Positions 1-19,320 of a stretch of DNA of 21,602 nucleotides are shown here, piece by piece. The notes under the pieces were generated by a model that did not search any database, was not told where the DNA came from, and worked only from the letters and a program-made list of their open reading frames with translations. Source of the DNA: a virus. The DNA lies in IMG/VR virus record IMGVR_UViG_3300008117_000958, positions 1-21,602 of that record; one strand, given 5' to 3'. Positions within the stretch are counted from its first letter, which is position 1. Each line of letters starts with the position of its first letter. Both the position numbers and the translations under genes were made by a program.

Positions 1-22
1 TGCGTGTTAGCAGCGAGGTTTT

Positions 23-1294
23 ATGGACACTAAAAGGATCACCGCAGCAGCCATTTTGTGGCTTGTTGCATCCACACTTCTCTTTGGGGCGGTCACCTCA
101 CCCGCGCTCGCCCTTGAAGACACAGACGAGTGGGATCAGCAGATTGACTCAAACGGAACAATCACACTTACCGAAGGAACGATTTTGATTCAGGGCAGCA
201 ACAATGCTGGCCCCGGATATCCATGGCAAAACACTGTGACCGGAATTACCACTGATTCTTCGGTTGGCGAGACGGTCTCTTTTGATTGGTCGTACTGGAC
301 CACTGACGGCGCGTTCTATGACCGCGCGCAGATGCTGCTTGACTCAAACTGGGTTGACCTCGCAATCTGGGATCAGGCTGGCTATAACCCACTCCAGCAA
401 AGCGGCACGCAATCTGTGTACATCGCGTCAGGTGGCTTTTTCGGATTCCGCATCTTGAGCACTGACTCGTGCTGCGGCGCAGGATTTCTTCAGATCAATA
501 ACACCACGTGGGTCGTTGGACCCGCGCCAACCCCTGAGCCCTCGGTAGAGCCTAGCCCTACCCCAAGCCCGGAGCCAACCAATGAACCATCACCATCTCC
601 AAGCCCTACTCCAACGCCTGAGCCTACGCCTCAGCCCACACCAGAACCAACCCCTACCCCCGAGCCCACCCCGTCTCCAACACCTGAGCCGACTCCAGTA
701 CCTGAAACACCTGAGCCCGTATCTCCTGATCCCAGCCCTCTACCTACTCCTGCACCTACCGAACCCCCTGTAGAACCCTCCCCAGAGCCCTCAGAAGCCC
801 CGATTTCCCCGAACCCTAGTCAGACACCAGATCCAGTAGAACCGAGCCCCAGCGTGGCTCCTAGCCCTATTCCAGAGCCATCTGTAGACCCAAGTGAGGA
901 GCCATCCCCTGAACCAACCCCTGAGCCTGCTCCAGAGAATCCGGTGGAAGCTATTGGAGAGGCGGCTGAGGCGGTCGGAGAGGCGGTTGGCGCGGCTGCA
1001 GAGGCAGTTGGAGAGGCTGTTGGGGCGGCTGCGGAAGCGGTCGGAGAAGCAGTAGGCGAAGCCCTTGCCCCGCTTGCCAATTTAGGTAATGATGTTACCG
1101 AAGAGGAGCGCGAGGAAGCTGCTCCAACCATTGTCGCTGCCGTGATCATGTCGCAGGTTGCCCAGAACGCTGTGGCTGCTGCGGCTCGCGCTGCAAGTAC
1201 ACCACCTTCTGGTGGAACGTCTGGTGGCGGTGGCGGTGGCGGGTCATCTGATAAGCGAACTAGCGGCGGGCGCTCTCATCGCCGCAATAGATAA
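23..1294 (+). CDS. Secreted proline-rich protein with N-terminal beta-rich domain
   Basis: This 423-residue protein is not recognised as a named family. Residues 1-30 look like a signal peptide: a positive start (DTKR), a hydrophobic core and an A-L-A cleavage site near residue 30. Residues 32-165 are rich in aromatic and beta-forming residues and hold an adjacent Cys pair (SCCG), resembling a small jelly-roll or carbohydrate-binding domain (inference). Residues of about 170-310 are a long Pro/Glu/Ser/Thr linker of PEP, PTP and PSP units. Residues 313-345 are three 11-residue Ala/Glu/Val/Gly repeats. A hydrophobic Ala/Val stretch (about 365-390) and a Gly-rich, Arg/Lys-rich tail follow. The layout suggests a protein exported from the infected cell, with a wall-spanning stalk. 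A GAGG ribosome site lies just upstream. The gene shares its start context (TTTTATGGAC) with the next gene, with which it forms a short operon. Confidence 0.8.
959..1057 (+). repeat. Three tandem 33-bp units encoding an 11-residue repeat
   Basis: Units lie at 959-991, 992-1024 and 1025-1057. Each encodes the pattern x-A-A/x-E-A-V-G-E-A-V-G. The units differ mostly at third codon positions, so the protein pattern is kept while the DNA has drifted. An 11-residue period fits an amphipathic helix or a right-handed coiled coil. Confidence 0.85.
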
Positions 1295-1302
1295 GGAGTT
1301 TT

Positions 1303-1584
1303 ATGGACGCACTTAAGGATATCTATCTAGCCGTCTGGTGGACGGTAAGCGCATGGCCAAAGAAGTTCAAGAAGCGCCTGTCTGGAATCGGCGAAGCCGT
1401 TAGGGACCTCTTGCCAAAAGTAATCAATGAGCTTGTGTCACAGTCGTGGACGGTCTTCGGACTGCTCGTTGGTTGGATTGTTCTCCCAGATGGCGATACC
1501 CGCAACTTCGTTGGGGTTGTCCTTCTCTGGCTCTGCATCGCCTGGCTTGTGACGATGCCGCTGCGCATCTCGCGCGAGGACTGA
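1303..1584 (+). CDS. Small membrane protein with two predicted transmembrane helices
   Basis: This 93-residue protein has a basic amphipathic N-terminal half (PKKFKKR at about 19-25) followed by two hydrophobic segments, near residues 48-62 and 69-86, joined by a short polar turn (PDGDTRN). An AAGGAG ribosome site sits six bases before the ATG and overlaps the stop codon of the upstream gene, so the two are probably co-translated. The topology resembles a small holin or an accessory membrane protein, but no family is recognised. Its stop TGA abuts the reverse-complement stop TCA of the convergent gene, so no untranslated space separates them. Plus-strand transcription would continue to the bidirectional terminator at 1803-1832. 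Confidence 0.7.
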   Translation: MDALKDIYLAVWWTVSAWPKKFKKRLSGIGEAVRDLLPKVINELVSQSWTVFGLLVGWIVLPDGDTRNFVGVVLLWLCIAWLVTMPLRISRED

Positions 1585-1788
1585 TCAGCCGATAACGACG
1601 TCGGTGTTCTGAGGGATCTTTTCCTGCCATGCCCAGCCTGATCCCTTGTAGACGATCTTTGGCGATGAAAAGTTCATGCGCATCTCAGCCTTGCACTTCT
1701 CGCAAAAGACTTTTGCGTCATCAGACATAGGGCGTACAACCTCAGTCGTGAGGTCGCATGGATCACACTTGAAATCGTAGGCTGGCAT
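1585..1788 (-). CDS. FmdB-like zinc-ribbon protein
   Basis: This 67-residue protein starts MPAYDFKC and has two CxxC knuckles, CDPC (residues 13-16 in the N-terminal part) and CEKC (about 34-37). It then has an SSP...V-x-K-G-S-G-W segment. This matches the small FmdB (CxxC_CxxC_SSSS) family, whose members carry the same start, a zinc ribbon and a FKGSGW-like tail. The four cysteines are expected to bind one zinc ion. The role is unknown, with regulation usually proposed. The gene is set apart from the lysis cassette by a strong terminator and seems to have its own extended -10 promoter. It has no convincing Shine-Dalgarno sequence and may be translated from a leaderless transcript. Confidence 0.8.
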   Translation of the reverse strand: MPAYDFKCDPCDLTTEVVRPMSDDAKVFCEKCKAEMRMNFSSPKIVYKGSGWAWQEKIPQNTDVVIG

Positions 1789-1794
1789 ATGTCC

Positions 1795-1803
1795 AGTATA
1801 ACA
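1795..1803 (-). promoter_or_regulatory. Extended -10 promoter for the zinc-ribbon gene
   Basis: The minus strand reads TGTTATACT, an extended -10 element (TG-n-TATAAT type). Only six bases separate it from the ATG at 1788, so initiation would fall at or next to the start codon and give a leaderless mRNA. No good -35 hexamer is seen, as is common with extended -10 sites. The upstream part overlaps the arm of the terminator hairpin. Confidence 0.45.
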
Positions 1804-1832
1804 AAAGACCCGCCCCGAAGGGCGGGTCTTTT
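1803..1832. terminator. Bidirectional intrinsic terminator ending the lysis cassette
   Basis: There is a perfect 13-bp inverted repeat (1803-1815 and 1820-1832) around a CGAA loop. The stem is GC-rich, flanked by AAAA on one side and TTTT on the other, so it works in both directions. On the minus strand it lies 17 bases after the holin stop. On the plus strand it would stop read-through from 23-1584. Confidence 0.9.
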
Positions 1833-1848
1833 GATTACCTGCTAGGTA

Positions 1849-2244
1849 TTACGCCTTATCGTCTTCGTCTGGGTAGACTTCGTTTGCAAGGCTGCCAGCG
1901 TACTCGTCGGCAATCCCGTCGCCGTCGGTATCAATAGCGCTGCCCTGAATGTGCGCGGTGCTCTCTCGGGCTTCCTTTTCCTCAGCCTTCACAGCCTTTG
2001 CCTTTCCGACGCCGAACTTGGCATCTTCAGGGTTCAAAGCGCGGACGACAACCTGCAAGCAGGCAGCCAGACCGGCTGAAAGGATCATGCGGAAATCGCC
2101 GCCACTGATATCGAGCAGCGGGATGCCGAGGCCAAGCGCTACTGCAATGCTGGTTGCCAAGAAGGCGCGACCCGCCTCAAGGAGCATTTCGTCAATGCCC
2201 GTGTTGTTGGCAATCCACTTAAGTCCGTTGATGATTGAAGCCAT
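1849..2244 (-). CDS. Putative holin with a C-terminal calcium-binding-like loop
   Basis: This 131-residue protein has two hydrophobic helices, near residues 27-45 and 51-70, separated by a short turn (LDISGGD). A charged Ala/Glu/Lys tail follows. The arrangement and the place directly after a lytic-type peptidase fit an actinophage holin (r1t-like), which forms membrane lesions that start lysis. At residues 105-114 the tail contains D-T-D-G-D-G-I-A-D-E, a textbook EF-hand-like or thrombospondin type 3 calcium loop, followed by a very acidic end. That element is unusual in a holin. An AAGGAG ribosome site five bases upstream overlaps the stop of the preceding gene, implying coupling. A strong terminator follows. 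Confidence 0.75.
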   Translation of the reverse strand: MASIINGLKWIANNTGIDEMLLEAGRAFLATSIAVALGLGIPLLDISGGDFRMILSAGLAACLQVVVRALNPEDAKFGVGKAKAVKAEEKEARESTAHIQGSAIDTDGDGIADEYAGSLANEVYPDEDDKA

Positions 2245-2253
2245 GGTTTCTCC

Positions 2254-2880
2254 TTACTTCTTTGCTGTGATGATTATAACATGCTGGTGCGGCTTGCCCA
2301 TGTGCTGCTTGCTTACCCGCTTGGAGTCAGCAATCTGCTGCAACTGCGCTTCCGTCACGATGACGCCAAACTGCTCCTTGCCCTTTCCGGAACGGGTTGG
2401 GCACGCCCACTGCCATCCAAGCTCTGGGTCATAGGCGGCAGCAGTCATGTGGCCGTAGCCAGCCTTGATGTGGCTGTTGTCCTTCTTTGACCAATAGGCA
2501 GCCCACTTGCTGTGCCAGTTTGAGACCTGCAGCCCTGCCGGGTAGCCAATCGGCTGCTGGACCCACACGATGAGACCAGCGCCAGCCTTTGCAGAATTGA
2601 CAACATCGTCCCATGACTTTGCAAAACGAGCTTCTGCACCAAGGACCCGGGCGGTCTTGATCAGATCCCCGAGAGATGAGCCGTTGTCCGACACGCCCTG
2701 CTTGTCCTTGTGCCCGGTTGCCTTTTCCTTGGCGGCAATGCCGTCAGCGGCAGAGAAGTCCTTGGTGTACTTGAACGCCCAAGAAACAGCCGCAGCCACG
2801 CTGGACGGGCCGCAGTCATCAAGAATGCCGCCCTTCTCCTCGTGGTCAAGCTGTGACTTAACCTTGAAATAGAGTCCCAT
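2254..2880 (-). CDS. C39-like cysteine peptidase, probable endolysin
   Basis: This 208-residue protein has a papain-fold C39-type signature: D-D-C23-G-P-S-S near the N-terminus and G-Y-G-H144-M-T-A-A-A-Y-D151 further on, which supply the probable catalytic Cys, His and Asp. Peptidases of this type occur as N-terminal domains of mycobacteriophage LysA endolysins, where they are thought to cut peptide cross-links of the wall. Here the domain stands alone, with no obvious cell-wall-binding domain, and sits directly upstream of the holin gene, so an endolysin role is the best reading. No signal peptide is visible, in keeping with holin-dependent release. The start has GGAGG five bases upstream. 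The alternative is a non-lytic processing peptidase. Confidence 0.75.
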   Translation of the reverse strand: MGLYFKVKSQLDHEEKGGILDDCGPSSVAAAVSWAFKYTKDFSAADGIAAKEKATGHKDKQGVSDNGSSLGDLIKTARVLGAEARFAKSWDDVVNSAKAGAGLIVWVQQPIGYPAGLQVSNWHSKWAAYWSKKDNSHIKAGYGHMTAAAYDPELGWQWACPTRSGKGKEQFGVIVTEAQLQQIADSKRVSKQHMGKPHQHVIIITAKK

Positions 2881-2913
2881 TGGAACCTCCGTACTATGTG
2901 GATTGATACGGAT

Positions 2914-2930
2914 ATTTTACCTGTTACAGG
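2914..2930 (-). promoter_or_regulatory. Possible promoter and operator before the lysis cassette
   Basis: In the 60-base gap before the peptidase gene, the minus strand reads CCTGTAACAGG (an 11-base inverted repeat at 2920-2930) directly followed by TAAAAT (2914-2919), a plausible -10 box. No clear -35 is seen. This could be a regulated lysis promoter, but the evidence is only a short palindrome and an AT-rich hexamer. Confidence 0.25.
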
Positions 2931-2940
2931 AGCGGGAGTC

Positions 2941-3237
2941 TTAAGCCTCTAGTTCTGCGGCTCTTGCGTTTGCTGGAATTAGCCTTGCAACCAAGAAGCC
3001 ATCAAGAGGTTCGGGCTGTACCTCCATTGCGCCGTCTTCAACAAGGGATTGGACAATGGGAAGTTCAGTTGCCTCAGAAGAAAGAAAGAACCATCCATCT
3101 GGGGCGGTGGAAACAGACTCGGCGCTAATAGTCGTTTTAGCCTTACCTTGTGATTCGTCATATAAAACACAGGTGTCATTCTCTTGGAAGATCGCAAATG
3201 ACCCAGCTGCAGTGTGGTGCATAAAAGATATACTCAT
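2941..3237 (-). CDS. Hypothetical protein between tail fibre and lysis genes
   Basis: This 98-residue protein matches no family that I recognise. I chose the ATG at 3237 (MSISFMHHT) over an upstream in-frame ATG at 3288. AAGGAG lies six bases before the chosen ATG, while the longer form would overlap the end of the fibre gene by about 35 bases. The protein is mildly acidic, rich in beta-formers in the first half (FAIFQENDTCVLYDE), and has no signal peptide or membrane segment. It ends in an Ala/Glu-rich helix. Genes in this place often encode fibre accessory or assembly proteins, but that is only positional inference. Confidence 0.7.
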   Translation of the reverse strand: MSISFMHHTAAGSFAIFQENDTCVLYDESQGKAKTTISAESVSTAPDGWFFLSSEATELPIVQSLVEDGAMEVQPEPLDGFLVARLIPANARAAELEA

Positions 3238-3253
3238 TAGTATCTCCTTGGTA

Positions 3254-6200
3254 TTACTTGTTTTCCAGTTCTGCGATCCGTGCCTCAAGGGACTTAACTC
3301 TACCGATAAGGTCCTTGATTACTACGCCCTCAAGTGCCCTAAGAGTGTCATATCGGAGAGCGCGATATGACACGCCATCTGAAATGTCGGTTGACACAGC
3401 CTCCGGGAACAGTGCCTCAACCTCGTCTGCGATAAGACCCCACCTTAGTTCGTCGCTTACCTCGTAATCAATCCCAGCAGTCACAAGACCGAAGTCTCGC
3501 ATTTTTTGGGCATCGTATCTAAAAGTAATCCAGTTAAGCAATTCATATTTATCTGTTTCTGGAGAAATAGATGAAATATCGCTCTTGAACGCACGCTCTG
3601 ATGTCATTGCGCCACTGTTATATCGCCGCAAGGACACGCTAGTTCCCGTGCCGCTCCAGCCACACCCAGCGTTAGCGATGGCGGCAATTCCAGTAGGGCT
3701 TACCGATTTGAAAATCGCATCAGATGACAGCTCTGTTTGCCCTACTGCCCCAGCCTGAATTTTTGCGGCTGTAACAGAATCTGTTGCAAGTTTGGCGTTG
3801 GTTACCGCAAAATCTATTATGCTGGCGCTGCCAATTGCGTCGTCTGCAACCTTGCCGTATATAACAGCATTTATTCCAAGTGAGTTGCTTTGAACCGCAC
3901 CGTCATTTATTTTGCTATTAGTCACTGCGTCAGCCGCAATCTTTGCTTGGGTTACCGAGAGATCAATAAGCTCAGACGTGCCAACCGCAAGCGCAGCAAT
4001 TTTGTCCTGGGTAACAGCGCTAGATGCAATTTCGGCAGATGTGACGGCGAGCGCCGCGATCTTTGAAGTTGTTACTTGACTGGCACCTATTTTGGCTGTG
4101 GTAACTGCGCTATCCGCAAGTTTTGCAGTAGTAATAGACCCATCTGCAACTGTACCGCCAAGCCCAGATGTTGCGCTTACGGTTCCGTTGATGGTTACAT
4201 CGCCATAGAATGTCCAATTTCTACCAGAAGACATCCTTGCTCCAACCTGAAAAACATTTGTGGATGTATTCGTATGACCAATATCAAGCCTGTTTCCATC
4301 AGGGACGGCAATGTCTCCCTCGTCAGAGTTTCCCTGCAGGGTGATGGCCGGCTTTCCCTCTGGGTTAAATCTTGCGCCGTAGGCAGTAAGATCGCCAGAG
4401 GAAGCGACGATAAAGTTTCCGTTTATGTTGAGCTGGCCGCCGGTTATATTCACGTTGCTTGCGGTAACGGCTCCAAGGCTGGTAACTCCGAACACCCCGC
4501 CATTCAGGCTGATTGAACCACCAGTAATTGTAAGGTCGCTAGCATTAACAGCCCCAGCAGTTGAGACCGTAAATGCCCCATTGTTAATTTCTCGAGACGT
4601 CAGTGTGCCTGTTGTGATGTTGCTGGCATTTAGGTTCGTGACTGCGACGTTTGCTGCGTTCAGGGTCCCTGTCGTGATCTTGTCAGCAGAGATTACGACC
4701 AAACCGTCAGATGTTACGTCAATTGCGTCCACCGATGCCCGAGTCCAATAGTTGTCCCACGCTCCTGGTGATGGATGCTTTCCGTTGCGGTACAGCTTTC
4801 CGTCTGCCTCGGAGTAAACAATTTGCCCAACTGGGAACTGGACGAGAGAAAATGCGTCACCAAGAACCCTAGGGTTGCCGTCCACGTCGTCAAACGCACC
4901 GCTTACCTCCCACCCGTTCGCCGTCCCCCCAGTAAGGCTGAGAACATTGGTTCCAGTCTTTGTAATGGTGAACGTGGTAGATGATAGAACCGTAATGATA
5001 TAGAACCCTCCGTTAACATCCGCATTGTTCGTGCCCGCCGCACCGGTAACGCCAACGACATAACCAGTTGAAAATCCATGTGCCGTTGAGGTCGTGACGG
5101 TTGCGGTCGTTGACGCGCCGCTGGCAATCCCAGAAATTGCCTTGGCAACACCATTTCCTGGGTAGGTCACGCTGCTTACAATCTTTGGGACATTGATCCC
5201 AAGGCCGTCATAAGCGTCAGAAAAATCTGTTTCTCCAGGCGCTGTCGGGGTGAACTCCGCGCTATCTGGGGAGTATTGCGTAAGAATTGGGGATGGCCCA
5301 GATACGTCTACCGCTGCAACCTTATATACATAACCAACGGAAGCCTCAACGTTTGTGTCGGTGAACGACGGAACTGCTGTGTCTGGCGCAAGAGGGTTTT
5401 GCGCAGTGAGGATCTCTTCGCCAGTGCTTGCCTTTTGCCACGTGGTTCCACCGTCACCAGTTCGCAGAACAATAAACCCGCCGAAGGAGGTGCTGTTGAC
5501 GATGCTCTGCGGGTATTCCCACGAGATGTCAACCTTCTCTGCCCCCGCGTCTCCGGTTGGAACTGCTGGCGTAACTATTCCGCCCTCGGTTGGGTACCCA
5601 GCGTATGGGCTTGGCGGCGGGGAGAAGTACGCGGCATCACCTGAGATTTCTCGGAGCCGCTGCTCAACGAGATACATCGTTGATCGCTGGAATGCCAAGT
5701 CGCCACCGAGTTGCACTCGGTAATAAACCTCTTGCCCAATCAGGTAGCCGACCTGCTTGCGGACAACAAGCGCCTCCGCAATCCCGAGCTCATCCCAGAT
5801 GAACGGGACAACATCTCCTACGTTAAGCTTCCCTGAGATGTGCTGAAACTCAAAAGACTTAAGAGCCTTTCCGGTCTTTTGAAAATGATCCTGGGCAGTT
5901 AGCAGGGCGGTTTCTACGTCGGTTGCATTGAGCGCAACGATAGAGCTCTCAATTCGCTTCCCCCCAGCCTCCCAGACGCCCTGCACAAAGTCATAGGTGT
6001 TTCTGTATGAGGTAAGCATCTTTGCGCCAGTAAGAGGGTCTTCGGTCGTGTATGGCGCATAGACATAGATCCTGTTGGAGGCCTCGCCAGATTCTGATGG
6101 TGCGCTTGGGTTCTCAAAGTCCTTGAGTGCCATCCCGTAGGTGGTCGTGTCCTCAAGCGGGTGGTCGCTAAAGCCATACGCACCAGTGATCTTGATGATC

Positions 6201-6805
6201 TGGATGTCTGTGAACCGAGCCGTATACGACGAAGAGAATTCTTCGTGGTGCAGGGTAAACGACATCTTTGCTGCGCCAGCAGGAACGATAACGATGCCCC
6301 AGTCCCTGTGCCACTCGTCATCAACTGGGTCATGTTGATTTATCTGGATGCCATGAGAATTGCCAACGATAACGTCAGAGGCGTCATAGAACTTCATCCG
6401 TGGACGTTCTTTGGCGTCCTTGTCTGAGAAGTGTCTCCATGAAACAAAGTATTTCTCTCCAGCAGTAACTAGAATTCTGTGCGCGACCGACATTTCTGCG
6501 TCTTGGTGGTCAGAACCCGTGTAGTACAGCGTGTTGCCAACTCCATACGGGCCGCTCGCCCCTGTAGTGTCGGCGAGCCATGAGCCCATATCCCATCCGA
6601 CCTGGGTCGTTGTGTTCCCGTCTACATCGTCAAACAAACCATTCTTGACAAGATCAACGAGATTCTTCGCCTTAGCGTTTAAGTTGATTGTCAGGTTGTT
6701 TGATCCATCTAGGGTTCCGCTGTCAAGATAGAAGACCCCCGTACCACGATCAACAACGTATTGAAGGTTGCGCGCAATTGTGCCTCCCTTGAGAGGGGTG
6801 GGAGT
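3254..6805 (-). CDS. Tail tip and fibre protein with C-terminal S74 intramolecular chaperone
   Basis: The reading frame is open from 6817 to the stop at 3254, but its first possible initiation codon is a TTG at 6637. The 60 codons before it look coding, so it is probably fused to the hub frame. Numbered from the TTG: residues 1-155 form a beta-rich, carbohydrate-binding-like domain. Residues 155-350 resemble tail-hub sequence. Residues 358-470 form a fibronectin type III domain (DISWEY...Y-V-Y-K-V-A-A-V-D). Residues of about 500-570 hold a small HGF domain. Then come beta-helix repeats (ITTGTLNA type), 14 decapeptide repeats (834-973) and an S74 chaperone. The last has Ser1013 and Lys1018 in S-E-R-A-F-K, the spacing of the catalytic dyad of endosialidase-type chaperones. 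The product should form a trimeric receptor-binding fibre whose chaperone is cut off after folding. Confidence 0.88.
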   Translation of the reverse strand, partial: TPTPLKGGTIARNLQYVVDRGTGVFYLDSGTLDGSNNLTINLNAKAKNLVDLVKNGLFDDVDGNTTTQVGWDMGSWLADTTGASGPYGVGNTLYYTGSDHQDAEMSVAHRILVTAGEKYFVSWRHFSDKDAKERPRMKFYDASDVIVGNSHGIQINQHDPVDDEWHRDWGIVIVPAGAAKMSFTLHHEEFSSSYTARFTDIQIIKITGAYGFSDHPLEDTTTYGMALKDFENPSAPSESGEASNRIYVYAPYTTEDPLTGAKMLTSYRNTYDFVQGVWEAGGKRIESSIVALNATDVETALLTAQDHFQKTGKALKSFEFQHISGKLNVGDVVPFIWDELGIAEALVVRKQVGYLIGQEVYYRVQLGGDLAFQRSTMYLVEQRLREISGDAAYFSPPPSPYAGYPTEGGIVTPAVPTGDAGAEKVDISWEYPQSIVNSTSFGGFIVLRTGDGGTTWQKASTGEEILTAQNPLAPDTAVPSFTDTNVEASVGYVYKVAAVDVSGPSPILTQYSPDSAEFTPTAPGETDFSDAYDGLGINVPKIVSSVTYPGNGVAKAISGIASGASTTATVTTSTAHGFSTGYVVGVTGAAGTNNADVNGGFYIITVLSSTTFTITKTGTNVLSLTGGTANGWEVSGAFDDVDGNPRVLGDAFSLVQFPVGQIVYSEADGKLYRNGKHPSPGAWDNYWTRASVDAIDVTSDGLVVISADKITTGTLNAANVAVTNLNASNITTGTLTSREINNGAFTVSTAGAVNASDLTITGGSISLNGGVFGVTSLGAVTASNVNITGGQLNINGNFIVASSGDLTAYGARFNPEGKPAITLQGNSDEGDIAVPDGNRLDIGHTNTSTNVFQVGARMSSGRNWTFYGDVTINGTVSATSGLGGTVADGSITTAKLADSAVTTAKIGASQVTTSKIAALAVTSAEIASSAVTQDKIAALAVGTSELIDLSVTQAKIAADAVTNSKINDGAVQSNSLGINAVIYGKVADDAIGSASIIDFAVTNAKLATDSVTAAKIQAGAVGQTELSSDAIFKSVSPTGIAAIANAGCGWSGTGTSVSLRRYNSGAMTSERAFKSDISSISPETDKYELLNWITFRYDAQKMRDFGLVTAGIDYEVSDELRWGLIADEVEALFPEAVSTDISDGVSYRALRYDTLRALEGVVIKDLIGRVKSLEARIAELENK
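3719..4138 (-). repeat. Fourteen degenerate 30-bp units encoding decapeptide fibre repeats
   Basis: Residues 834-973 of the fibre frame fall into 14 consecutive 10-residue units with the pattern A-V-T-x-x-K-I-A-x-x (for example AVTTAKIGAS and AVTQDKIAAL). The hydrophobic positions are kept while the DNA varies. Such repeats are common in phage fibre stalks just before S74 chaperones and form a repetitive trimeric shaft. Confidence 0.85.
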
Positions 6806-7805
6806 GAAACGAACCGTTTATGTCCGCATATCCAGCCGGCCCATTTGTCAGGGAGATCGTAACTACTCGGTCAACGCCAAACCCATGCGGGGCCGAGGTC
6901 GTGATTGTCGCCGTATTCGCGGTTCTTGCGACATTAGAAATTGCCCGAGAAATGTCTGGGTTTCTTGGGCTCCACTTCCAGTCTGGATTGAGATCGGCAA
7001 TGTTAGCTGGGTTGACAACAATTCTTGAATCAAGTTGCGGGGCATTGTTGGTGGTCATGAAGCCCGGAACAGTCACTGCCCCCGTTACAGCCGCACTTGC
7101 GCTATCTGCAACATTTGAGTACTGTTGGAAGCGCACCTTGTAAGTGCTGCCCTCGGAGGCAACCCCAGTGACCTTGTGAACCCCGTCGTATGTGTTGTCG
7201 CTTAGGTCAACAACAACCGTGTCGCCAATCTCTAGATTTCTGCTATATGGTGCGCCAATGGCGATTGAGCTGACTGTGACCGCGGATAAGCCAGCAGTTC
7301 TCTCTGCGAAACTTGGGGTAAATGAATAGGTCTGGCTGGTAATAGTCTGCTTGATGGTTGAATTCGCCAGCGGCGTGTACTCAAGGGCAACGGTCTCATT
7401 GAGCAGCGCAGTATAGTCAATTGCCTCAAATGAGCCAACAATTGCCCCGCCATCGCGGTTCTCGGACACTCGAGTGACAACCCCGCCCCAGAGGATGGTA
7501 TGAGGACTGGTTGAGACATCGCGAATCTGTACCTCGGTACGGGATGGGATCTTTAGATGGAAGAAGTGATCGGTGAGTGCGTTCTGGATCTTCTCAGCCT
7601 GTGTTGCGCCAGCGTACTGCAGCCAATGTGTCGTGCTTACCGGAAGGATGCTATAGAGATTTGCCCGAAGTGACGAGGCATTCCCTTGGTCGTTTTGCTC
7701 CCACTCAATAGAGTCAAACTCAATGTGTCTGCTGAAATCATAAAAAGCCTCCTGGTCAGTGGCCGCAGGAAGCCTAGGCTGGATGTAAACGCGGATTTCT
7801 GCCAT
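6750..7805 (-). CDS. Tail hub (Tal-like) protein, N-terminal part, frame interrupted
   Basis: The frame encodes 351 residues. The first 333 read as a beta-rich tail hub or baseplate protein (HIEFDSIEWEQND, WGGVVTRVSENRDGG), ending in an HGF domain (ITTSAPHGFGVD ... YADINGSF). A paralogue of that domain lies in the fibre frame. The last 18 residues are low-quality sequence and the frame stops at 6750. Coding sense passes into another frame (TPLKGGTIARN ... GTGVFYLD), a pattern typical of hub proteins. The ATG overlaps the TAA at the end of the extended tape-measure frame (TAATG), as at two other junctions here, implying coupling. Hub and fibre frames together would give about 1516 residues, a normal size for a Tal-type tip protein. 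Confidence 0.8.
   Translation of the reverse strand: MAEIRVYIQPRLPAATDQEAFYDFSRHIEFDSIEWEQNDQGNASSLRANLYSILPVSTTHWLQYAGATQAEKIQNALTDHFFHLKIPSRTEVQIRDVSTSPHTILWGGVVTRVSENRDGGAIVGSFEAIDYTALLNETVALEYTPLANSTIKQTITSQTYSFTPSFAERTAGLSAVTVSSIAIGAPYSRNLEIGDTVVVDLSDNTYDGVHKVTGVASEGSTYKVRFQQYSNVADSASAAVTGAVTVPGFMTTNNAPQLDSRIVVNPANIADLNPDWKWSPRNPDISRAISNVARTANTATITTSAPHGFGVDRVVTISLTNGPAGYADINGSFHSHPSQGRHNCAQPSIRC
6803..6812 (-). other. Probable +1 frame junction joining hub and fibre frames
   Basis: Codon 333 of the hub frame is TTT followed by CAC (TCG TTT CAC). Skipping one base after TTT gives ACT and the sequence TPTPLKGG, which continues to the fibre frame. TTT-C lets a Phe tRNA re-pair as TTC. A single extra T in the sequence would give the same result, so programmed shifting and a sequence error cannot be told apart here. 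Confidence 0.5.
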
Positions 7806-7939
7806 TAGTAGAGCCTCCCGCCCTCAGTCCTAAATTGGCTTGCCTGAACCCTTGAGATTTCCTGGGCAAGCTTCCTAATGTCATTATCGTTCCTAATTAC
7901 AGGATTATTGACATTTATTGTAGGCTTAGCCGGTTTTTT
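7805..7939 (-). other. -1 frame extension of the tape measure, with A AAA AAC slippery heptamer
   Basis: The heptamer A AAA AAC occupies 7933-7939, in the correct zero-frame phase (GAA AAA AAC). After a -1 shift the frame reads PAKPTINVNNPVIRND, then IRKLAQEISRVQ, and ends GGRLY with TAA at 7805-7807. That TAA overlaps the next ATG as TAATG. Basic, helical tape-measure ends of this kind are usual. No convincing downstream stem-loop is seen; there is only a 3-bp GGC/GCC repeat right after the site. A tract of seven A where there should be eight would explain it equally well. Confidence 0.6.
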
Positions 7940-10900
7940 TCCATAATTCCGCCAGAGTGGAATCCTGGTATAACCATATCACCAGTTTCCTTGTCAAAAT
8001 ATCTTGGGAATAGTTTTGGATAGTGTGATGCAATTATGGCAAATTCATCTAAAATCTGATTGTATTTAGTCTGAAGTGGCGCAATTTCATTAATGGCTGC
8101 GAGGCCTTTAATTCCGGCCCTTACACCCTTAAGCTCATCACTCGCCACGCCCTTAGAAACCATAGTGCTTAGCATTGTGTTCAGCGTTGTTTCATAGTTT
8201 TTCTTCAGAGCTTTAACTTGATTTCCCGGGTCTGCTAGGGCTTCAACGGTAGCCGTTGCGCGAGCAACCAGCTGCATAAGGCGCAGAACTTCTTTATACT
8301 TTTTCATGATGTAACTAATCAAGACCTTAAACCCCTTGGTCTCAAGGTTTTTGATTAGATCCTCGGCAAAGGTAACATTCATATCAATGCCCTTCATGTT
8401 CGCGGCATCCATAACTGAGCGCATTGCAGAGTTCATTTCTGTGACCTTTGCGCCCATCATGTCAATAGTTATCCCAAAACGTTCCTCAAGCTTGCCCTGG
8501 AGTTCTTTAAGTTTGACTGCAATTTGGCTTTCTTTTTCTGCCCATGAAAGGTCTGGGTTCTCAAGAATCCATGCGATGTCTCGGTTGTAGTCCTCAAACA
8601 TCCTAGTCATCTCATCAAGAATCAGCTCCTGACCCTTGCTGAACTCCTCAAGGCGCTCCTTGGTTGCCTCGGTTAGACGACCCCAATCTCGTGAGTTCGT
8701 TGCCTCATCAACAAGGTTTTCAAGGCCCTCAAAGCGAAGGTCGGAGATATCTTTCTCGTACTTCTGTTGCGCTTGGCGAAGTTGAATTGCGCGCTGCAGC
8801 GGGTCAATTGATTCATCATATTGCTGAAGCGTTGCAAGGCCGAGGTCATATTCAGCCTCAGCAAGTGCCTTGATTCGCTCCTGCTCTTTCCTTCGTTCCT
8901 TTTCAATCTTTAGGCGCTCATTAACCATCTTGAGGTTAACCTCGCCAGCGTTTAGTTCGTCCTCGGTTAGTGGAAGAATGGAATCAAGGATGTCCTTGTA
9001 TTCATCAAATGACCTGCTAATTCCTTGCCTATTCTCAAAGGTTGTGAAGCTCATCTCCTGCTCAATCTCAAGCAGTTTTTCGTACTTAACCATTTCGCCT
9101 GAGTCTAGTGCGTATGGATTCTCAAAGTCAGGGTTAATAATGTCGTCAAGAACTTCCTCGGCAACCTTCTGAAGGATTTCAAGTGCATCAGCTACGCGCT
9201 GCTTTGCAATTGCCAGCAATCCATTATATTTCTTCAGGGCAGTATTTGCGGCATCCTGCTGGTTGATAAGAAGTTTTTGATAGTTAGTCAAATCCCTCAT
9301 GCCGCTCTTGGCCTGCTCAATGACCCTTGGATAGCGAGACTCGCGCTCTGCTTGCCTAAAGTTGACCATGGAACGCTGGTTGAGGTCGTTTCTGATTAGT
9401 CCGTTTTGAACGGTTGATGACGCGTACTGTGAGTCCTTGTAGTAGCCAGAGCCATCAAGAACAGTCCCGCGCGTGTCGTAATAACGGCTCCTCACCCTAT
9501 CCGCGTACCCAGGGTCGCCGGGCTTAAGCTCGCTGTTCCTTCTCTCGTCCTCTGCTTCGCCAGCTTTTCCAAGCAAAAATGCAATAAGGAGACCGATCGC
9601 AGCAATAATTGCAATAACGGCCAAAGCAACACCTGCGGTAGCCGCGGCAAGACCAACCCCTGCGGCAGCAACCGCGGCGACAGCACCCTGAAATGCAAGA
9701 CCAATTAACGGAAGCGCAGCAATAAATGCACCAATCGCAACCAAAGCAGCTTTCAATGCGGCGATAAGTGTGGGCAGGACCATTGAGAGCACTGCAAAAG
9801 CCATTGTAATATCAAAAATTCCCTGCAGGGAGGCAGCCGCCTCAGGGCTAATTGCACCAGACTGAGCGGCGCCCTGAGTGGCCATGGTTCCAACCATTCC
9901 GACTGCCAGCGCCGCACCGGATAGCTTCTGCAGTCTAGACATACTTGCTGAGGCCGCTATTGCCGCGACATTAAATGCGCGCATCTGAACTGTTGCCCTA
10001 AAGAGGGCGCCTGTAAGAAGGGAGATTCCCCCTATTACCAACTTGCTTGCAAGGCTTACGCCAAGAAGGAATCCGATTACCCTAAGAACTGGCTCCATCT
10101 TGCTTAAGACGCTTAAAACTGTTCCAAGGACTTGTGCTACGGCAGAAATTGTTGGAGCTAGTGCCCTAAACGCTGCAGAAAGGCCAGCGATAATCCCTTG
10201 GCTAATGGTCAAGAGAACACTCATAAGCACCGGCAGGAATTCATCTCTAAAGATGCCAATCATTGGCTCAATGCTGGCAGCCATTTGTCTAAATGCCTGC
10301 CCAATGCCAAATAGGTTTTCGTTCACTGCCATTTTCAGCGCACCGAGGAGCGTTATGAGGAGCCCAATGCTAACCATGAATGGGTTCGCTGAAGCAAACT
10401 TGAATGCAACGCCAATTAGGGCGGCTGTTGCTACGATTGTTCTTGCAAAATCATTTTCAAGAAGTTTGATTATTTCTCTTACCCCGATGGCAAATGCGCC
10501 AAAGGTTCCCCCAACACCTCCGACGCTTGATCCGATGCTTGACATTGCATTAGCGAAGTCTTTGCCGATCCTTTTTCCAATGCTCATCAAAAGTGCGCCC
10601 ATTGGCTTCAATTGCACAAGAATCTTTTCAACAACATCACTGAAAGCCAGCGCAGATGCGCGAACGCTTGGGTCTTGTAGGAAAAGGCTGAACTCGTAGG
10701 TTATATCCCTAATTGCGTTGTAGAGCGGCCTAAAAGAATCTGCCACAAGGCTCTGAGACATGTCGGCAACCGTGCTGAATGCTCCGGCAAATGTCTTGGA
10801 TTGTGCCATCATTCCGCCGCCGAAGTCGCGCTCAAGGCCAGAAAGGATTGCTCGAGACGCTACCTCTCCAGAGATTTTTCCGCTAGTTGTAAGCCGGCGT

Positions 10901-12789
10901 ACGGTCTCAATTGCGTTTGATTGCAGTTGACGATAAAGATTTTCTTGGCCCTTGATAACCTTGTCTTGAGTACCCTTGCCGTCAGTCGTAATTTCTTTCA
11001 TGAGTGCTTCGGCGATATACTTGTATCCACCGATACCCGCGTTTGCCAGCTGCATCATGTCGTTTTGGTAGACGCGACCAGCTTGCTTCATCTGACCGAG
11101 AGCGTAGGTAATTCTTCGGAAGGCGTCTGCCCCGCCGCCAAGGGCAGCAACGGCGTTACCTACGGCAACGATACCGCCAGAGAACTGATCTACTGATTCA
11201 GAATTTTCGTAAAGGATCTCCTGCATGTCAAACCCGAACGCTCGCATTCGGAGTGTTGACTCTTGGATTTCCGCGAACCTAAATGGCGTAACGTTTGCAA
11301 ATTGGCGAATGGTTTCAATGACGCCCTCGGCTGCCTCCTTTGCGTTGTCATAACCCATTGCCATGAAGTCAATGCCGACTGCATTTTCTCCAACCAGCTC
11401 ATTTGTTGCCTCTGCCTGCTTTCTTTGGTTGTCAAATAGAGTGGTAAACCCAACCGTTGCCTGCTCCAGCATTGAGTTAAACTGAACTACACCACCCTGA
11501 AGATGTCCAAATACTTGCTGCAGTTGTGAGGCGACGGCATGAATTGCCTGATACCCGAAGGCCATGCCAAGAACGTTTTTAATTTGACCAGTAATTGCGT
11601 CGCCTTCGCTCCTTACCTGGGAGATTGACCGTGCTGCTGCAGCGGCGGACTTGTCAATCTGACCATATGCGGACGACAACTGCTGCGGGGCCTTAGGGCT
11701 ACCGGGACCACCAGAACCACCAGATCCGGCAGCATACTGAGACTTCGGGAATACGCTTGCCTCATTACGGCGCTCCATTCTGTGGAGTTGCGCATACTCC
11801 TTGGCAAATCCGCCCCTCATCTCCCGCATCATGCGAGTTGCAATTAGTTCTGGGGTTTGCGCCTTAGTCGGTCCCCGCCCCCCAGCTGGCCTAGCTGACT
11901 TTGCTAGCGCATTAAGCGCAGAGGATGCATTTTTTGCTGCCGACGCAAGACCCTCAAGCCCTGATGACACGCCACGGACGTTGGCGCTAGGGGCAGATGG
12001 TGTAACTTGTTTAGAGGCGGCTGCTTCGGCGGCTTTTCTCGCTTGCGCATCCTTGATTGAACGATACTCCGCCTCGTATGGTGCAAGCCGTTTTGCCTGG
12101 GCAGCAAGCTCAGCTTCGTTAAAGCGACCACCTGCCCTAATGCGCCGAGGTGTTAAATCCTTGCTGGTTGCGTCAGAAACCGATGTTGCTGCCCGCTTTG
12201 CGACCGCGATCCGTTCCCGTGCACCGGCCATCGCGACCTGTGTTTTCTGCGCTTCAGTTGCCTTGTCGGTGGCAACTGCTTTTCTTGCGGCCTCCTCACG
12301 TAGGCGCTGTTCTCGATTGAAGTTGGTCGTGAGAAGCGAACGCTCGGCGGAAAGCGACTCTGCTTTTCCAGAATATTCTGAGCTGGCGGAGATTGCTCTT
12401 GATCTGGCTTTGGCAAGATTCTCAATAAGACCACGGAACCCGTCAGCATTTTTTCCCGCAGCACGCAAGGACTTATCGTCAAGGCCGACGCTTTTTAGGA
12501 TGTCTTGAGATAGACCAGTCTTTTTGACTGCCTCGCCAATTGCTGAGATGGCTGGGCTTAAAGCCTTTGCTTGATCCCTAGCATTACCAAGACCCTTGGC
12601 AGCTCCATATGAGGACTTGATAAGGTCCTGCATCTGAATTGGGATGTTTGCAAGACCGCGCATCTGCGATGCTTGGCGCTCTAGTCCACCGATCTGCTTG
12701 GTGAGGGCGGCAATGCGCTGGGCAGCGCTGTCACCGCCCTCAACCTGCAAGCCAATCTTTAGGTCAAATTTGGCCTGATCGTCAGCCAT
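7915..12789 (-). CDS. Tape measure protein
   Basis: This 1624-residue frame sits straight after the chaperone pair, the standard place for a tape measure, which sets tail length and threads the tube. The first 330 residues are Ala/Lys/Arg/Glu-rich coiled coil. A conserved tape-measure core follows (about 430-720: FANVTPFRFAEIQES, LRMRAFGFDMQEIL, MMQLANAGIGGYKYI). Hydrophobic helices lie between about 780 and 1130, including a long Ala/Val/Ile stretch ending in LLIAFLLGKAG. The C-terminal third is charged coiled coil. The ATG overlaps the stop of the GT frame. The frame ends at 7915 soon after an A AAA AAC heptamer. A -1 shift there adds 42 residues and gives 1661 residues. At about 1.5 angstrom per residue that predicts a tail of roughly 250 nm (inference). 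Confidence 0.95.
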   Translation of the reverse strand: MADDQAKFDLKIGLQVEGGDSAAQRIAALTKQIGGLERQASQMRGLANIPIQMQDLIKSSYGAAKGLGNARDQAKALSPAISAIGEAVKKTGLSQDILKSVGLDDKSLRAAGKNADGFRGLIENLAKARSRAISASSEYSGKAESLSAERSLLTTNFNREQRLREEAARKAVATDKATEAQKTQVAMAGARERIAVAKRAATSVSDATSKDLTPRRIRAGGRFNEAELAAQAKRLAPYEAEYRSIKDAQARKAAEAAASKQVTPSAPSANVRGVSSGLEGLASAAKNASSALNALAKSARPAGGRGPTKAQTPELIATRMMREMRGGFAKEYAQLHRMERRNEASVFPKSQYAAGSGGSGGPGSPKAPQQLSSAYGQIDKSAAAAARSISQVRSEGDAITGQIKNVLGMAFGYQAIHAVASQLQQVFGHLQGGVVQFNSMLEQATVGFTTLFDNQRKQAEATNELVGENAVGIDFMAMGYDNAKEAAEGVIETIRQFANVTPFRFAEIQESTLRMRAFGFDMQEILYENSESVDQFSGGIVAVGNAVAALGGGADAFRRITYALGQMKQAGRVYQNDMMQLANAGIGGYKYIAEALMKEITTDGKGTQDKVIKGQENLYRQLQSNAIETVRRLTTSGKISGEVASRAILSGLERDFGGGMMAQSKTFAGAFSTVADMSQSLVADSFRPLYNAIRDITYEFSLFLQDPSVRASALAFSDVVEKILVQLKPMGALLMSIGKRIGKDFANAMSSIGSSVGGVGGTFGAFAIGVREIIKLLENDFARTIVATAALIGVAFKFASANPFMVSIGLLITLLGALKMAVNENLFGIGQAFRQMAASIEPMIGIFRDEFLPVLMSVLLTISQGIIAGLSAAFRALAPTISAVAQVLGTVLSVLSKMEPVLRVIGFLLGVSLASKLVIGGISLLTGALFRATVQMRAFNVAAIAASASMSRLQKLSGAALAVGMVGTMATQGAAQSGAISPEAAASLQGIFDITMAFAVLSMVLPTLIAALKAALVAIGAFIAALPLIGLAFQGAVAAVAAAGVGLAAATAGVALAVIAIIAAIGLLIAFLLGKAGEAEDERRNSELKPGDPGYADRVRSRYYDTRGTVLDGSGYYKDSQYASSTVQNGLIRNDLNQRSMVNFRQAERESRYPRVIEQAKSGMRDLTNYQKLLINQQDAANTALKKYNGLLAIAKQRVADALEILQKVAEEVLDDIINPDFENPYALDSGEMVKYEKLLEIEQEMSFTTFENRQGISRSFDEYKDILDSILPLTEDELNAGEVNLKMVNERLKIEKERRKEQERIKALAEAEYDLGLATLQQYDESIDPLQRAIQLRQAQQKYEKDISDLRFEGLENLVDEATNSRDWGRLTEATKERLEEFSKGQELILDEMTRMFEDYNRDIAWILENPDLSWAEKESQIAVKLKELQGKLEERFGITIDMMGAKVTEMNSAMRSVMDAANMKGIDMNVTFAEDLIKNLETKGFKVLISYIMKKYKEVLRLMQLVARATATVEALADPGNQVKALKKNYETTLNTMLSTMVSKGVASDELKGVRAGIKGLAAINEIAPLQTKYNQILDEFAIIASHYPKLFPRYFDKETGDMVIPGFHSGGIMEKNRLSLQ

Positions 12790-13066
12790 TCTTCAGCAAC
12801 TCCGCCTTCGCTTCTGGTGCCCCAAACTGGGCCACCATTTGATCCATTGATTTCGTAGAGCCCATTCTTTGACCGGTTGCTCCAGACGAAGGCGACTTAC
12901 TCTGGCGCTTCATCTCTGCGTCCCTCTTCTCTGCGTATGAGGCAAAGTCCGAGAGCTGGGGAAGCGTCAGTTGGAGAAATTGTTCTGGTGTGAAGCCGAA
13001 TGCATCAGAATATGATGCAGAAAGTTCACCCCAGTTTATACTTCCCCAGTCGCCTCCTCTTTTCCC
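12782..13066 (-). CDS. Tail assembly chaperone GT-type frameshift extension
   Basis: After the slippery site, the -1 frame reads KRGGDWGSINWGELSASYSD, a region of about 94 codons that ends in LLKNG and a TGA at 12782-12784. It contains FGFTPEQFLQLTLPQLSDF, a pattern typical of the T domain of tail chaperones. It has no start codon of its own near the junction and is expected only as a fusion to the upstream 98-residue protein. The fusion would be about 184 residues. The T domain is thought to bind the tube protein while the G part coats the tape measure. Its stop overlaps the tape-measure ATG region, so the three products are translationally linked. Confidence 0.88.
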   Translation of the reverse strand, partial: GKRGGDWGSINWGELSASYSDAFGFTPEQFLQLTLPQLSDFASYAEKRDAEMKRQSKSPSSGATGQRMGSTKSMDQMVAQFGAPEAKAELLKNG

Positions 13067-13332
13067 GACGAGACTTCGTCGGTTCCAAGCAAACCGCTTG
13101 CCTTTAGGACTTTTTGAACCTCTTCTTGCATGGTTTGGATGTTAAATCGTTCTCCAACCTGCTCAATAGAGATGCCAACTTCGCCCTTGCGAATAACAAG
13201 CCAAAGAATTTTTCTGATTACAGTGAATCGGCTGAGGTCCACTTTGTCCAGCGGTCCAAACTCCTCTTCAAGCTCAGCAAGGTCGTTGAGGTTTAGGGCT
13301 TTGCCGCCCTTGAGCTCTACCAGATTTCCCAT
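13036..13332 (-). CDS. Tail assembly chaperone G-type protein
   Basis: This 98-residue acidic, helical protein (LNDLAELEEEFGPLDKVDLSRF, FNIQTMQEEVQKVL) lies between the tube gene and the tape measure, which is the standard place for gpG-type chaperones. These keep the tape measure soluble during tail assembly and are absent from the virion. It ends ...SSGKEEATGEV. The G GGA AAA heptamer falls 31-37 bases before the end of the frame, so most ribosomes make this short form and a minority make the GT fusion. A GGGAG ribosome site precedes the ATG. A strong promoter lies about 85 bases upstream, so expression of the tail genes can be set apart from the capsid genes. Confidence 0.9.
   Translation of the reverse strand: MGNLVELKGGKALNLNDLAELEEEFGPLDKVDLSRFTVIRKILWLVIRKGEVGISIEQVGERFNIQTMQEEVQKVLKASGLLGTDEVSSGKEEATGEV
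13060..13066 (-). promoter_or_regulatory. Programmed -1 frameshift site G GGA AAA (G/GT)
   Basis: On the minus strand the zero frame reads TCG GGA AAA GAG, so the X XXY YYZ heptamer is G GGA AAA, close to the G GGA AAG of lambda. After a -1 slip the next codon is AGA and the frame runs on in the chaperone T domain. The phase, the position between tube and tape measure, and the extension length all fit the conserved tail-chaperone frameshift. Confidence 0.88.
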
Positions 13333-13382
13333 AACTCTCCCACTGCAGCCCGTGGCTGCTATTTACATCTATGCCCGACCAG

Positions 13383-13396
13383 ACGACACATGTCGT
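13383..13396 (-). promoter_or_regulatory. 14-bp palindrome in the leader of the tail chaperone operon
   Basis: ACGACA and TGTCGT flank two central bases, a perfect inverted repeat. It lies about 14-27 bases downstream of the predicted start site of the 13417-13445 promoter. It may be an operator or a small leader hairpin. A second short stem (GCAGCC/GGCTGC) lies nearer the gene. Confidence 0.35.
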
Positions 13397-13416
13397 GCTT
13401 TGGTGGGGGCGGGTAC

Positions 13417-13445
13417 ATTATACCCATATCTTTCCCCATTGTGAA
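13417..13445 (-). promoter_or_regulatory. Strong sigma-A type promoter for the tail operon
   Basis: The minus strand has TTCACA (13440-13445, one mismatch to TTGACA), a 17-base spacer, then TATAAT (13417-13422), a perfect -10. It lies in the 183-base gap between the tube gene and the chaperone gene, just after the hairpin that follows the tube gene, and reads into chaperones, tape measure and tip genes. Confidence 0.7.
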
Positions 13446-13459
13446 GACTGGGGGATCTA

Positions 13460-13493
13460 TGTGGGGCCGAGAGCCGAAGCCCCCGACCCCACA
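13460..13493 (-). terminator. Strong hairpin after the tail tube gene
   Basis: The minus-strand RNA can form a 15-bp stem (seven pairs of TGTGGGG/CCCCACA, then G-C and G-U pairs) closed by a C(UUCG)G tetraloop, one of the most stable loops known. No U-tract follows, so it may be a partial terminator or a 3' stabilising hairpin. A shorter 7-bp stem (TTAAAGC/GCTTTAA, 13496-13515) lies between it and the tube stop codon. Confidence 0.6.
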
Positions 13494-13515
13494 GATTAAA
13501 GCGCTAAGGCTTTAA

Positions 13516-14124
13516 TTACGCCTCAATGAGGACGATGGTCGGCTCAGCCGTGCCACCAGTCGTCACGAGAAGCGACGTGTCCACAACCGCCATGAAGTCA
13601 ACATCCTGAACGATGATGTCTTCTCGGGTGAACGGAATGTTCAGGCTCATCGTGTACGCCTTTGGCAAGTGGATCTTGACCGTCTTGGACGAGTCATCGG
13701 TCCGCTGGTGCGTAAAGCGCACGTAGAGTGGGCGTGGGAGACCGGCTCCTGCCGTGGTCGCCTGCCCCGAGCCGCCGTCAACGTCTGGATCAAACACGAA
13801 CGAGCTTGGCTCGGCAGTGCTGATGAACGAAGCGGTTCCGTTGCTATTGAAGAAGTTCTTGAGCGAGTTTACGTTAAGCTCAACTTGACGCGCACGCGCC
13901 TCAACCTTACCACCGAAGTGTGCCTTCATGATAGGGAAGTTGAACTGACCGTAGAATTCGCGCTCCTGATAATTGATGTCAAACTCGACATCGCCGGCGA
14001 TCTGTCCGATGGAGAATACCGCAGTGTATCCGCCCGACGCAGAAGTAAAGTACGCTGAGGTACCCTTCGCGCGGCCGCTCACCCAGTAAGCCACCTCTAG
14101 TACGCCTGATCCAAGCGTAAGCAT
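13516..14124 (-). CDS. Major tail tube protein
   Basis: This 202-residue protein is beta-rich, with little helix. It sits between the tail completion gene and the chaperone pair, the standard place for the tube protein, which polymerises around the tape measure. Features are an N-terminal glycine-rich strand (LTLGSGVLEVAYW), a central beta segment (VEFDINYQEREFYGQFNFP) and a C-terminal segment (FTREDIIVQDVDFMAVVDTS). The length is normal for siphovirus tubes. AAGGAG lies seven bases before the ATG. Two hairpins follow the stop codon and a separate promoter starts the next unit, so tube output can be much higher than that of the tape measure. The assignment rests on position, size and composition; I recognise no diagnostic motif. 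Confidence 0.82.
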   Translation of the reverse strand: MLTLGSGVLEVAYWVSGRAKGTSAYFTSASGGYTAVFSIGQIAGDVEFDINYQEREFYGQFNFPIMKAHFGGKVEARARQVELNVNSLKNFFNSNGTASFISTAEPSSFVFDPDVDGGSGQATTAGAGLPRPLYVRFTHQRTDDSSKTVKIHLPKAYTMSLNIPFTREDIIVQDVDFMAVVDTSLLVTTGGTAEPTIVLIEA

Positions 14125-14140
14125 TATTGTGCTCCTTGCG

Positions 14141-14545
14141 TTAAGATTTTATTAGGTTATATCGGATGATTCTCCGATATTCCTGTGCCTGATCGTCATA
14201 CCCATCTGCCTCGTAAACCTTTTGACAGAGGTGCACTACGACCCCATTTGGACCCGAAAGCCGCTTTCGGTTAATCAACGTGTCCACCCTTGCCGAAATC
14301 GTATTAAGTTCAGTAGTACTGGTCCCACTGGAGATGAGAACGTCTACTGTTGGACGATCTATCGGAAGGCCAACATCCGCCGAGCCGCTAAGCACAGCTA
14401 TCCGAATCGCCGGCAGATTACTCGAGCCGACATGGTAAATGGGGTACACCTTCTTATCCGTGTTTGAACCGGAGAGCAACGTCTGGAGCGTGGCATCCCC
14501 GCCCAACGCGGTAAAGAACGATTCGTACACACCAACCATGTCCAT
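14141..14545 (-). CDS. Tail completion (tail terminator) protein
   Basis: This 134-residue protein starts MDMVGVYESFFTALGGD and has the pattern of small tail completion or minor tail proteins found just before the tube gene. It has an N-terminal helix, then strands (KKVYPIYHVG, PAIRIAVLSG, RPTVDVLISSG), a helix (ELNTISARVDTLIN) and a C-terminal strand (QEYRRIIRYNLI). Such proteins cap the tail and join it to the neck. No good ribosome site precedes the first ATG. A second in-frame ATG lies at 14539, six bases after a TAGAGT that could serve as a -10 with TTGGCT 17 bases further upstream, so a leaderless start is possible. It is divergent from the plus-strand gene at 14634. Confidence 0.78.
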   Translation of the reverse strand: MDMVGVYESFFTALGGDATLQTLLSGSNTDKKVYPIYHVGSSNLPAIRIAVLSGSADVGLPIDRPTVDVLISSGTSTTELNTISARVDTLINRKRLSGPNGVVVHLCQKVYEADGYDDQAQEYRRIIRYNLIKS

Positions 14546-14619
14546 ACTCTACGCGCATTTGTTAAGGGAGCCAATAGACCCGCGATCTACGCAGAAGCTC
14601 GTCATATAGACATTTTTCT

Positions 14620-14634
14620 TTGTTACGGTAACAA
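14620..14634. promoter_or_regulatory. 15-bp perfect palindrome at a divergent gene start
   Basis: TTGTTAC and GTAACAA flank one central G. The last base is the A of the ATG of the plus-strand gene at 14634. It lies in the only divergent gap (88 bases) between tail genes and the plus-strand cluster, a natural place for an operator. It may also block ribosome access as a hairpin. Confidence 0.5.
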
Positions 14635-14942
14635 TGCTGAACATGGCAGCAGCCAAAATTCCAGCCGACTTGCACGCCTCCCAGGAGGAGGCCGCCGCGC
14701 TTTCCTATTGGAGGGGCCACATGGACGCTAAAATGGACGACTTGACACGAAGAGTTAGCAGCATTGAGGGTAAGGTAAACACTATCCACGAAGATGTCCA
14801 AAAGATCGTGGTGAGCCTTGAGAAGAGGGACGCAGCCGACGGTCAGGTCAAGGGCATCCTTCGCTGGATAGCGCCAGACTCTGCGGCGGCTATTGCCATT
14901 ATCGTGGCGGCTATTGCTATTGCCCTGAGGTTCGTTCCCTAA
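14634..14942 (+). CDS. Coiled-coil protein with C-terminal membrane anchor, XhlA-like
   Basis: This 102-residue protein has an Ala-rich N-terminus, a heptad-type coiled coil (about 28-65: MDDLTRRVSSIEGKVNTIHE...VVSLEKR) and one C-terminal hydrophobic helix (about 82-98, SAAAIAIIVAAIAIAL). The layout is that of haemolysin XhlA-type proteins, which work with holins in some phages. Here it is far from the lysis cassette and on the other strand, so the lysis role is uncertain. Start choice is open: ATG at 14634 or 14643, neither with a good ribosome site. A 15-bp palindrome overlaps the first ATG. An alternative role is a membrane-linked accessory such as superinfection exclusion (speculative). 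Confidence 0.65.
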   Translation: MLNMAAAKIPADLHASQEEAAALSYWRGHMDAKMDDLTRRVSSIEGKVNTIHEDVQKIVVSLEKRDAADGQVKGILRWIAPDSAAAIAIIVAAIAIALRFVP

Positions 14943-14965
14943 TCCACATTTCCACACTATCATTG

Positions 14966-14995
14966 TGGACACACAGCTGTTCTGTGTTGTATACT
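14966..14995 (+). promoter_or_regulatory. Promoter for the phosphoesterase cluster
   Basis: TGGACA (14966-14971, one mismatch to TTGACA), an 18-base spacer and TATACT (14990-14995) form a good sigma-A type promoter. It starts just after the stop of the upstream gene and reads into 15054-16506. Confidence 0.6.
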
Positions 14996-15018
14996 GCTAT
15001 CCGTTGGGGCAACTAGCG

Positions 15019-15040
15019 CCTACCCCGTAGCCGGGCTAGG
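15019..15040 (+). promoter_or_regulatory. Leader hairpin just before the ribosome site
   Basis: CCTA-c-CCCG and CGGG-c-TAGG form an 8-bp stem with one C-C mismatch and a TAGC loop. It ends four bases before the GGGAGG ribosome site (15044-15049) and may influence translation. No known riboswitch is recognised. Confidence 0.35.
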
Positions 15041-15053
15041 TCAGGGAGGTTAA

Positions 15054-15305
15054 ATGACAAGCAGGGCAACCGCTCTTGCTGAGCTGCAAAAGATGCAGTC
15101 GTTTAAACCGCGCGGAGCAAAATGCACCGCGGGTCTTGTTTCAAGAATCCTTGGTGGCAAGGATCGGGAGGCGCTCATTGAGGCGCTTGGAGATCAAACC
15201 ATTGACGCCAACACGATCAGCGTATGGCTTGATCGCAAGGGTCACAAGGTGAGGCGACACACTGTTGCCCGCCACCGACGAGGGGAGTGTGCCTGCAATG
15301 AGTGA
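15054..15305 (+). CDS. Small basic putative DNA-binding protein
   Basis: This 83-residue protein looks helical and basic. The second half (REALIEALGDQTIDANTISV, then LDRKGHKVRRHTVARHRRGECAC) has the shape of a helix-turn-helix: a helix, a turn and a basic recognition helix rich in Arg and His. Small phage and actinobacterial proteins ending in RHRRGxCxC are of this general type and are thought to bind DNA, but the role is not known to me. Start: ATG with GGGAGG five bases upstream, behind a good promoter. Its stop TGA overlaps the ATG of the phosphoesterase gene, so the two are probably coupled. It could be an autoregulator of this two-gene unit (inference). Confidence 0.65.
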   Translation: MTSRATALAELQKMQSFKPRGAKCTAGLVSRILGGKDREALIEALGDQTIDANTISVWLDRKGHKVRRHTVARHRRGECACNE

Positions 15306-18115: not shown

Positions 18116-18171
18116 GTGCTGATTGTCCTCCTAACGGTCTTTTTAGTCTACCCCTATTTGATCTACGGCTG

Positions 18172-18180
18172 TGATACAAT
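18172..18180 (+). promoter_or_regulatory. Extended -10 promoter for the glycosyltransferase-like gene
   Basis: TGATACAAT is an extended -10 element (TG-n-TACAAT). The predicted start site lies near 18187, close to the AAGGAGG ribosome site (18188-18194), which is four bases before the ATG. No good -35 hexamer is seen at 17 bases. The 5' leader would be only about 12 bases. Confidence 0.5.
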
Positions 18181-18198
18181 CCCACCCAAGGAGGACCC

Positions 18199-19273: not shown

Positions 19274-19290
19274 CTTCTTATGGTAACAGA

Positions 19291-19320
19291 AAGGGGACCG
19301 GGCTTTCGCCCGATCCCCTT
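19291..19320 (-). terminator. Strong hairpin after the major capsid gene
   Basis: A 13-bp stem (19291-19303 with 19308-19320, one G-U pair) is closed on the minus-strand RNA by a GAAA tetraloop. It begins about 24 bases after the capsid stop codon. The sequence beyond the stem is CTGTT, without a real U-tract, so it is probably a partial terminator or a stabilising 3' hairpin. Confidence 0.65.

Follow-up and report, generated by a model that had tools for sequence, protein, structure and literature searches.

Two overlapping frames on the minus strand of a viral contig encode a putative tail hub and a tail fibre, and the second of them is open well ahead of its first usable start. We asked whether these frames are fused by programmed frameshifting, are two separate genes, or are the remains of one gene from which sequence is absent. 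The contig, IMG/VR record IMGVR_UViG_3300008117_000958, was analysed over positions 1 to 21,602, and this whole 21,602-nt stretch is referred to below as the window.

Results

The first frame (frame A; 6750–7805, minus strand), the 5′ part of the hub gene, starts with an ATG directly after the tape measure gene and encodes 351 aa. Its product is 95.8% identical to residues 1–333 of a 1580-aa protein of a related virus, L002 (IMGVR_UViG_3300044627_005880), after which the frame is lost; the last 18 codons (6806–6753, HSHPSQGRHNCAQPSIRC) are an out-of-frame reading of frame B sequence. Frame B (3254–6817, minus strand; 1187 codons) comprises the remainder of the hub and the tail fibre; in L002 a single ORF covers these together with the 5′ part of the hub. 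It is open from the TAA at 6820–6818 through to 3254, and its C-terminal part contains a Peptidase_S74 chaperone domain (PF13884, 2.5e-06) and gives PHROG tail fibre matches. The hub part gave no match in Pfam or PDB searches, and the name 'hub' thus rests on its position, following the tape measure (PF20155).

As a preliminary description of this DNA had stated, frame B contains no ATG or GTG between the upstream stop (6818–6820) and the TTG at 6637; the only alternative codons before the TTG are ATT 6778, CTG 6694 and ATC 6688. The same description had read this start-less stretch (6637–6806, minus strand) as hub protein, and we found that it is indeed a continuation of the hub gene. It encodes GGTIARN and GTGVFYLD in frame B, and over the 57 codons from the junction to the TTG the window and L002, its nearest relative, differ at 16 bases, all of them synonymous in frame B (16 synonymous to 0 nonsynonymous, versus 1:14 and 2:13 in the other two frames). 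The dN/dS was ~0.05 before the junction and ~0.06 after it. Frame B was therefore in use, or under selection, until very recently.

The same figures bear on the possibility that hub and fibre are separate genes and that the second begins at TTG 6637, where frame B has its first usable start codon. The 16:0 ratio is a strong argument against an independent start at this position, as the codons before the TTG are conserved as well as those after it. In addition, a clear Shine-Dalgarno sequence was not found upstream of the TTG, and none of the relatives has a separate start here. We consider two separate genes highly improbable.

Scanning a viral collection with the proteins identified L002, and a profile built from L002 and L004 identified further relatives; a search among bacterial hosts yielded none. 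In L002 both frames are part of a continuous 1580-codon ORF, which starts at the tape-measure end, and L018 likewise has a single ORF, of 1577 codons. These two genes supply the related, unbroken frame of about 1500 codons that the preliminary description had proposed to look for. None of the eight relatives that cover the site (L002, L013, L014, L015, L016, L017, L018 and L019) has a break in the frame there. Judged by this sequence comparison, hub and fibre are a single tail hub-fibre gene of ~1545–1580 codons that immediately follows the tape measure. The L002 gene, at 5001–9743 of this uncultured phage, resembles that of the window in gene order after the tape measure and in its domains as far as the S74 end, with a protein identity of 93% in the hub part and 89% in the rest (from an alignment separate from the one that gave 95.8%). 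It differs in being one frame of 1580 codons, whereas the window lacks 107 nt.

The absence lies at the junction 6806/6807 (minus strand), where alignment against L002/G001 places 107 nt of the relatives, with one T ambiguous. Against L002 there is a single 107-nt gap at window position 6807, with no other gap for hundreds of bases on each side and with flanks of 90.6% and 86.6% identity over 300 nt; the next gaps occur in the repetitive fibre part, at a distance of more than 2 kb. The 107-nt segment aligns at full length in G004, G005, G006 and G007. An intact homologue thus aligns with one gap, which is not a multiple of three. The preliminary description had raised deletion with frame loss as a further possibility, and the clean gap against L002 bears that reading out; the window lacks 107 nt instead of carrying an additional T. 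A DNA pattern search for the hub allele of the window in intact form gave no match.

In the context of L002 the absent stretch reads NGSF-VIASVPTDSTFTYTTITTGTITSGAATGTAVCSGE-ITPTPLKGG. It comprises ~36 residues (codons 333–369 of L002) from a beta domain at residues 285–366, and the HGF-like domain of the window hub is cut to its first half, not only relative to its paralogue in frame B, as had been noticed earlier, but also relative to all relatives. An AlphaFold model of residues 1–460 had a pLDDT of 52.5 overall and near 90 for residues 281–360. According to this model, the absent piece is the second half of the beta domain in the hub.

The preliminary description had favoured a +1 shift at TCG TTT CAC. 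That site does occur in the window, and slipping by +1 at TTT-C, a rare step found at 5 of the 3574 codons of these genes, would fuse the frames into NGSF-TPTPLKGG. A programmed shift, however, found no support. The break is not conserved, the relatives being continuous across the site, and even the fused product would be without the ~36 residues that supply the later strands of the beta domain modelled with a pLDDT near 90. The tape measure is also broken (see below), and a slip there could not restore an absent conserved segment. Neither the next codon nor the downstream fold showed a frameshift stimulator: CAC is not a stop, and the fold was at chance (z −0.5). A working TTT-C slip would likewise keep the frame under selection, yet would give a half-domain protein that no relative needs. 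Programmed +1 frameshifting is known from prfB and antizyme. As in these cases, two frames overlap in the window and would be joined by a +1 slip; unlike them, the window has no conserved break, stop or stimulator at the site, and sequence is absent at the junction. We accordingly give programmed fusion of hub and fibre at this site almost no weight. An intron or a translational bypass was ruled out, because the absent pieces are conserved coding sequence in the relatives.

Two further losses were found in the window. The tape measure gene (7915–12789, minus strand) is truncated by the loss of 124 nt (versus G001) or 127 nt (versus G004), while in the relatives it is intact and encodes 1654–1895 aa. 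The window protein is 100% identical (rounded) to those of G004, G005 and G006 over residues 1–1623. Alignment against L002 and G004 places this second junction at 7921/7922 (minus strand); the gene stops early at 7915, and its conserved C-terminus runs out of frame at 7921–7806, up to the hub start, with 15 synonymous to 4 nonsynonymous differences. At a third junction (18079/18080, minus strand) 178 nt are absent from the head-tail adaptor gene (17382–18200, minus strand; phrog_442 match, 2.2e-14), a frame-losing change with 4-nt microhomology, so that the N-terminus is replaced by out-of-frame sequence. The 178-nt segment is present in G004, G005, G006 and G007 at 98–100% identity, and the adaptor is intact, as a 303-aa ORF, in G004 and G005. 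The remaining window genes that were compared are collinear and intact; for the last part of the window, into which neither G001 nor G002 extends, the comparison was limited to the DNA and ORF lists of G004 and G005. Amid the minus-strand structural genes lies an exonuclease-type gene on the plus strand (15265–16506; phrog_284, 1.1e-69), which is 98–99% conserved in the relatives.

The window is mosaic. Positions 7922–21569 are ~99.4–99.5% identical to G004 (IMGVR_UViG_3300008107_007728), whereas positions 1–7921 are ~76% identical to G004 and ~90% to G001. As the switch in identity falls at the tape-measure junction, this second junction coincides with a change of relationship. Such a mosaic could be a chimeric contig, joined where strains branch, or a natural recombinant whose assembly has a gap at the branch. 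Short-read assemblies of microdiverse phages are known to break where the sequence varies or coverage is low (PMC6487183). When, as a direct test of a join at strain branches, the breakpoints were compared with the edges of k-mers shared between strains, no significant closeness was detected (p 0.09–0.15), and the comparison lends the idea no support.

We compared three nearly identical contigs, G004 (3300008107), G005 (3300008108) and G006 (3300021599), which have ~99.8% identity along most of the length that they have in common (98.4–99.9% by segment). Among them, five losses, of 238, 118, 166, 214 and 141 nt, are confined to G005 and affect the end of its major head protein gene, its tape measure and its hub-fibre gene; the comparison contig was G004 alone for the 238-nt loss and G006 alone for the 141-nt loss. 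A contig 99.9% identical to G005, from a neighbouring sample number, has none of these losses. G005 (IMGVR_UViG_3300008108_000871; L016) thus resembles the window in having clean, mostly frame-losing losses of ~100–240 nt relative to nearly identical contigs. The places differ, with the exception of the tape-measure end, where the G005 loss (118 nt) removes almost the same piece, with almost the same right edge, as that of the window. Of the eight losses in the window and G005, seven are not multiples of three. Microhomology at seven of the eight junctions was as in random joins (mean 1.14, P 0.15); inclusion of the G005 junction with 8 nt raised the mean to 2.0 (P 0.002). Separately, the hub gene of G006 (L025) has a 10-nt loss relative to G004 at ~13833 that breaks the frame; it stops after 964 codons, and the remainder is open in another frame.

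Discussion

The above comparisons suggest that the 107-nt absence is an assembly gap in a metagenome contig, to which we assign a probability of about 80%. A short gap would have been joined during contig building without its sequence; the absence, which lies within the HGF-like beta domain of the hub, shifts the downstream part of the gene into a different frame. If it arose in this way, the gene is probably complete in the living phage and requires no recoding. The losses in the tape measure and the adaptor of the same contig move the likely cause from biology to assembly, and breaks in three structural genes that bear signs of very recent purifying selection favour absent assembly sequence. 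Clean losses of this size that ignore the frame, in one of several near-identical contigs, resemble joined assembly gaps. The support is indirect, coming from the three losses in one contig and from the G005/G004 pair. Against a gap, no runs of N are marked at the junctions in the IMG/VR records as they stand, and the tape-measure right edge, nearly the same as in G005, together with the 8-nt microhomology, could reflect real recombination.

The main alternative is that the losses are real and that the window represents a phage genome, or a subpopulation, that recently became defective through deletions in the adaptor, tape measure and hub. The clean junctions, the microhomology (8 nt at one G005 junction and 4 nt at one in the window) and the loss of almost the same tape-measure piece in two contigs would agree with this. 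Real deletions, however, would have broken three essential structural genes and left everything else that was compared intact. Purifying selection is still visible in every downstream frame, and the neighbouring-sample contig that nearly matches G005 retains everything G005 has lost. We regard real deletions as unlikely. More doubtful still is that some phages of this group carry recurrent 100–240-nt deletions in virion genes, with the tape-measure end, affected in two contigs, as a hot spot, and exist as a defective pool complemented by intact relatives.

Split tail genes in IMG/VR contigs can thus reflect absent sequence rather than recoding, and comparison with near-identical contigs quickly exposes such absences. 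If, on the other hand, the deletions were real, they would indicate a pool of defective phages.
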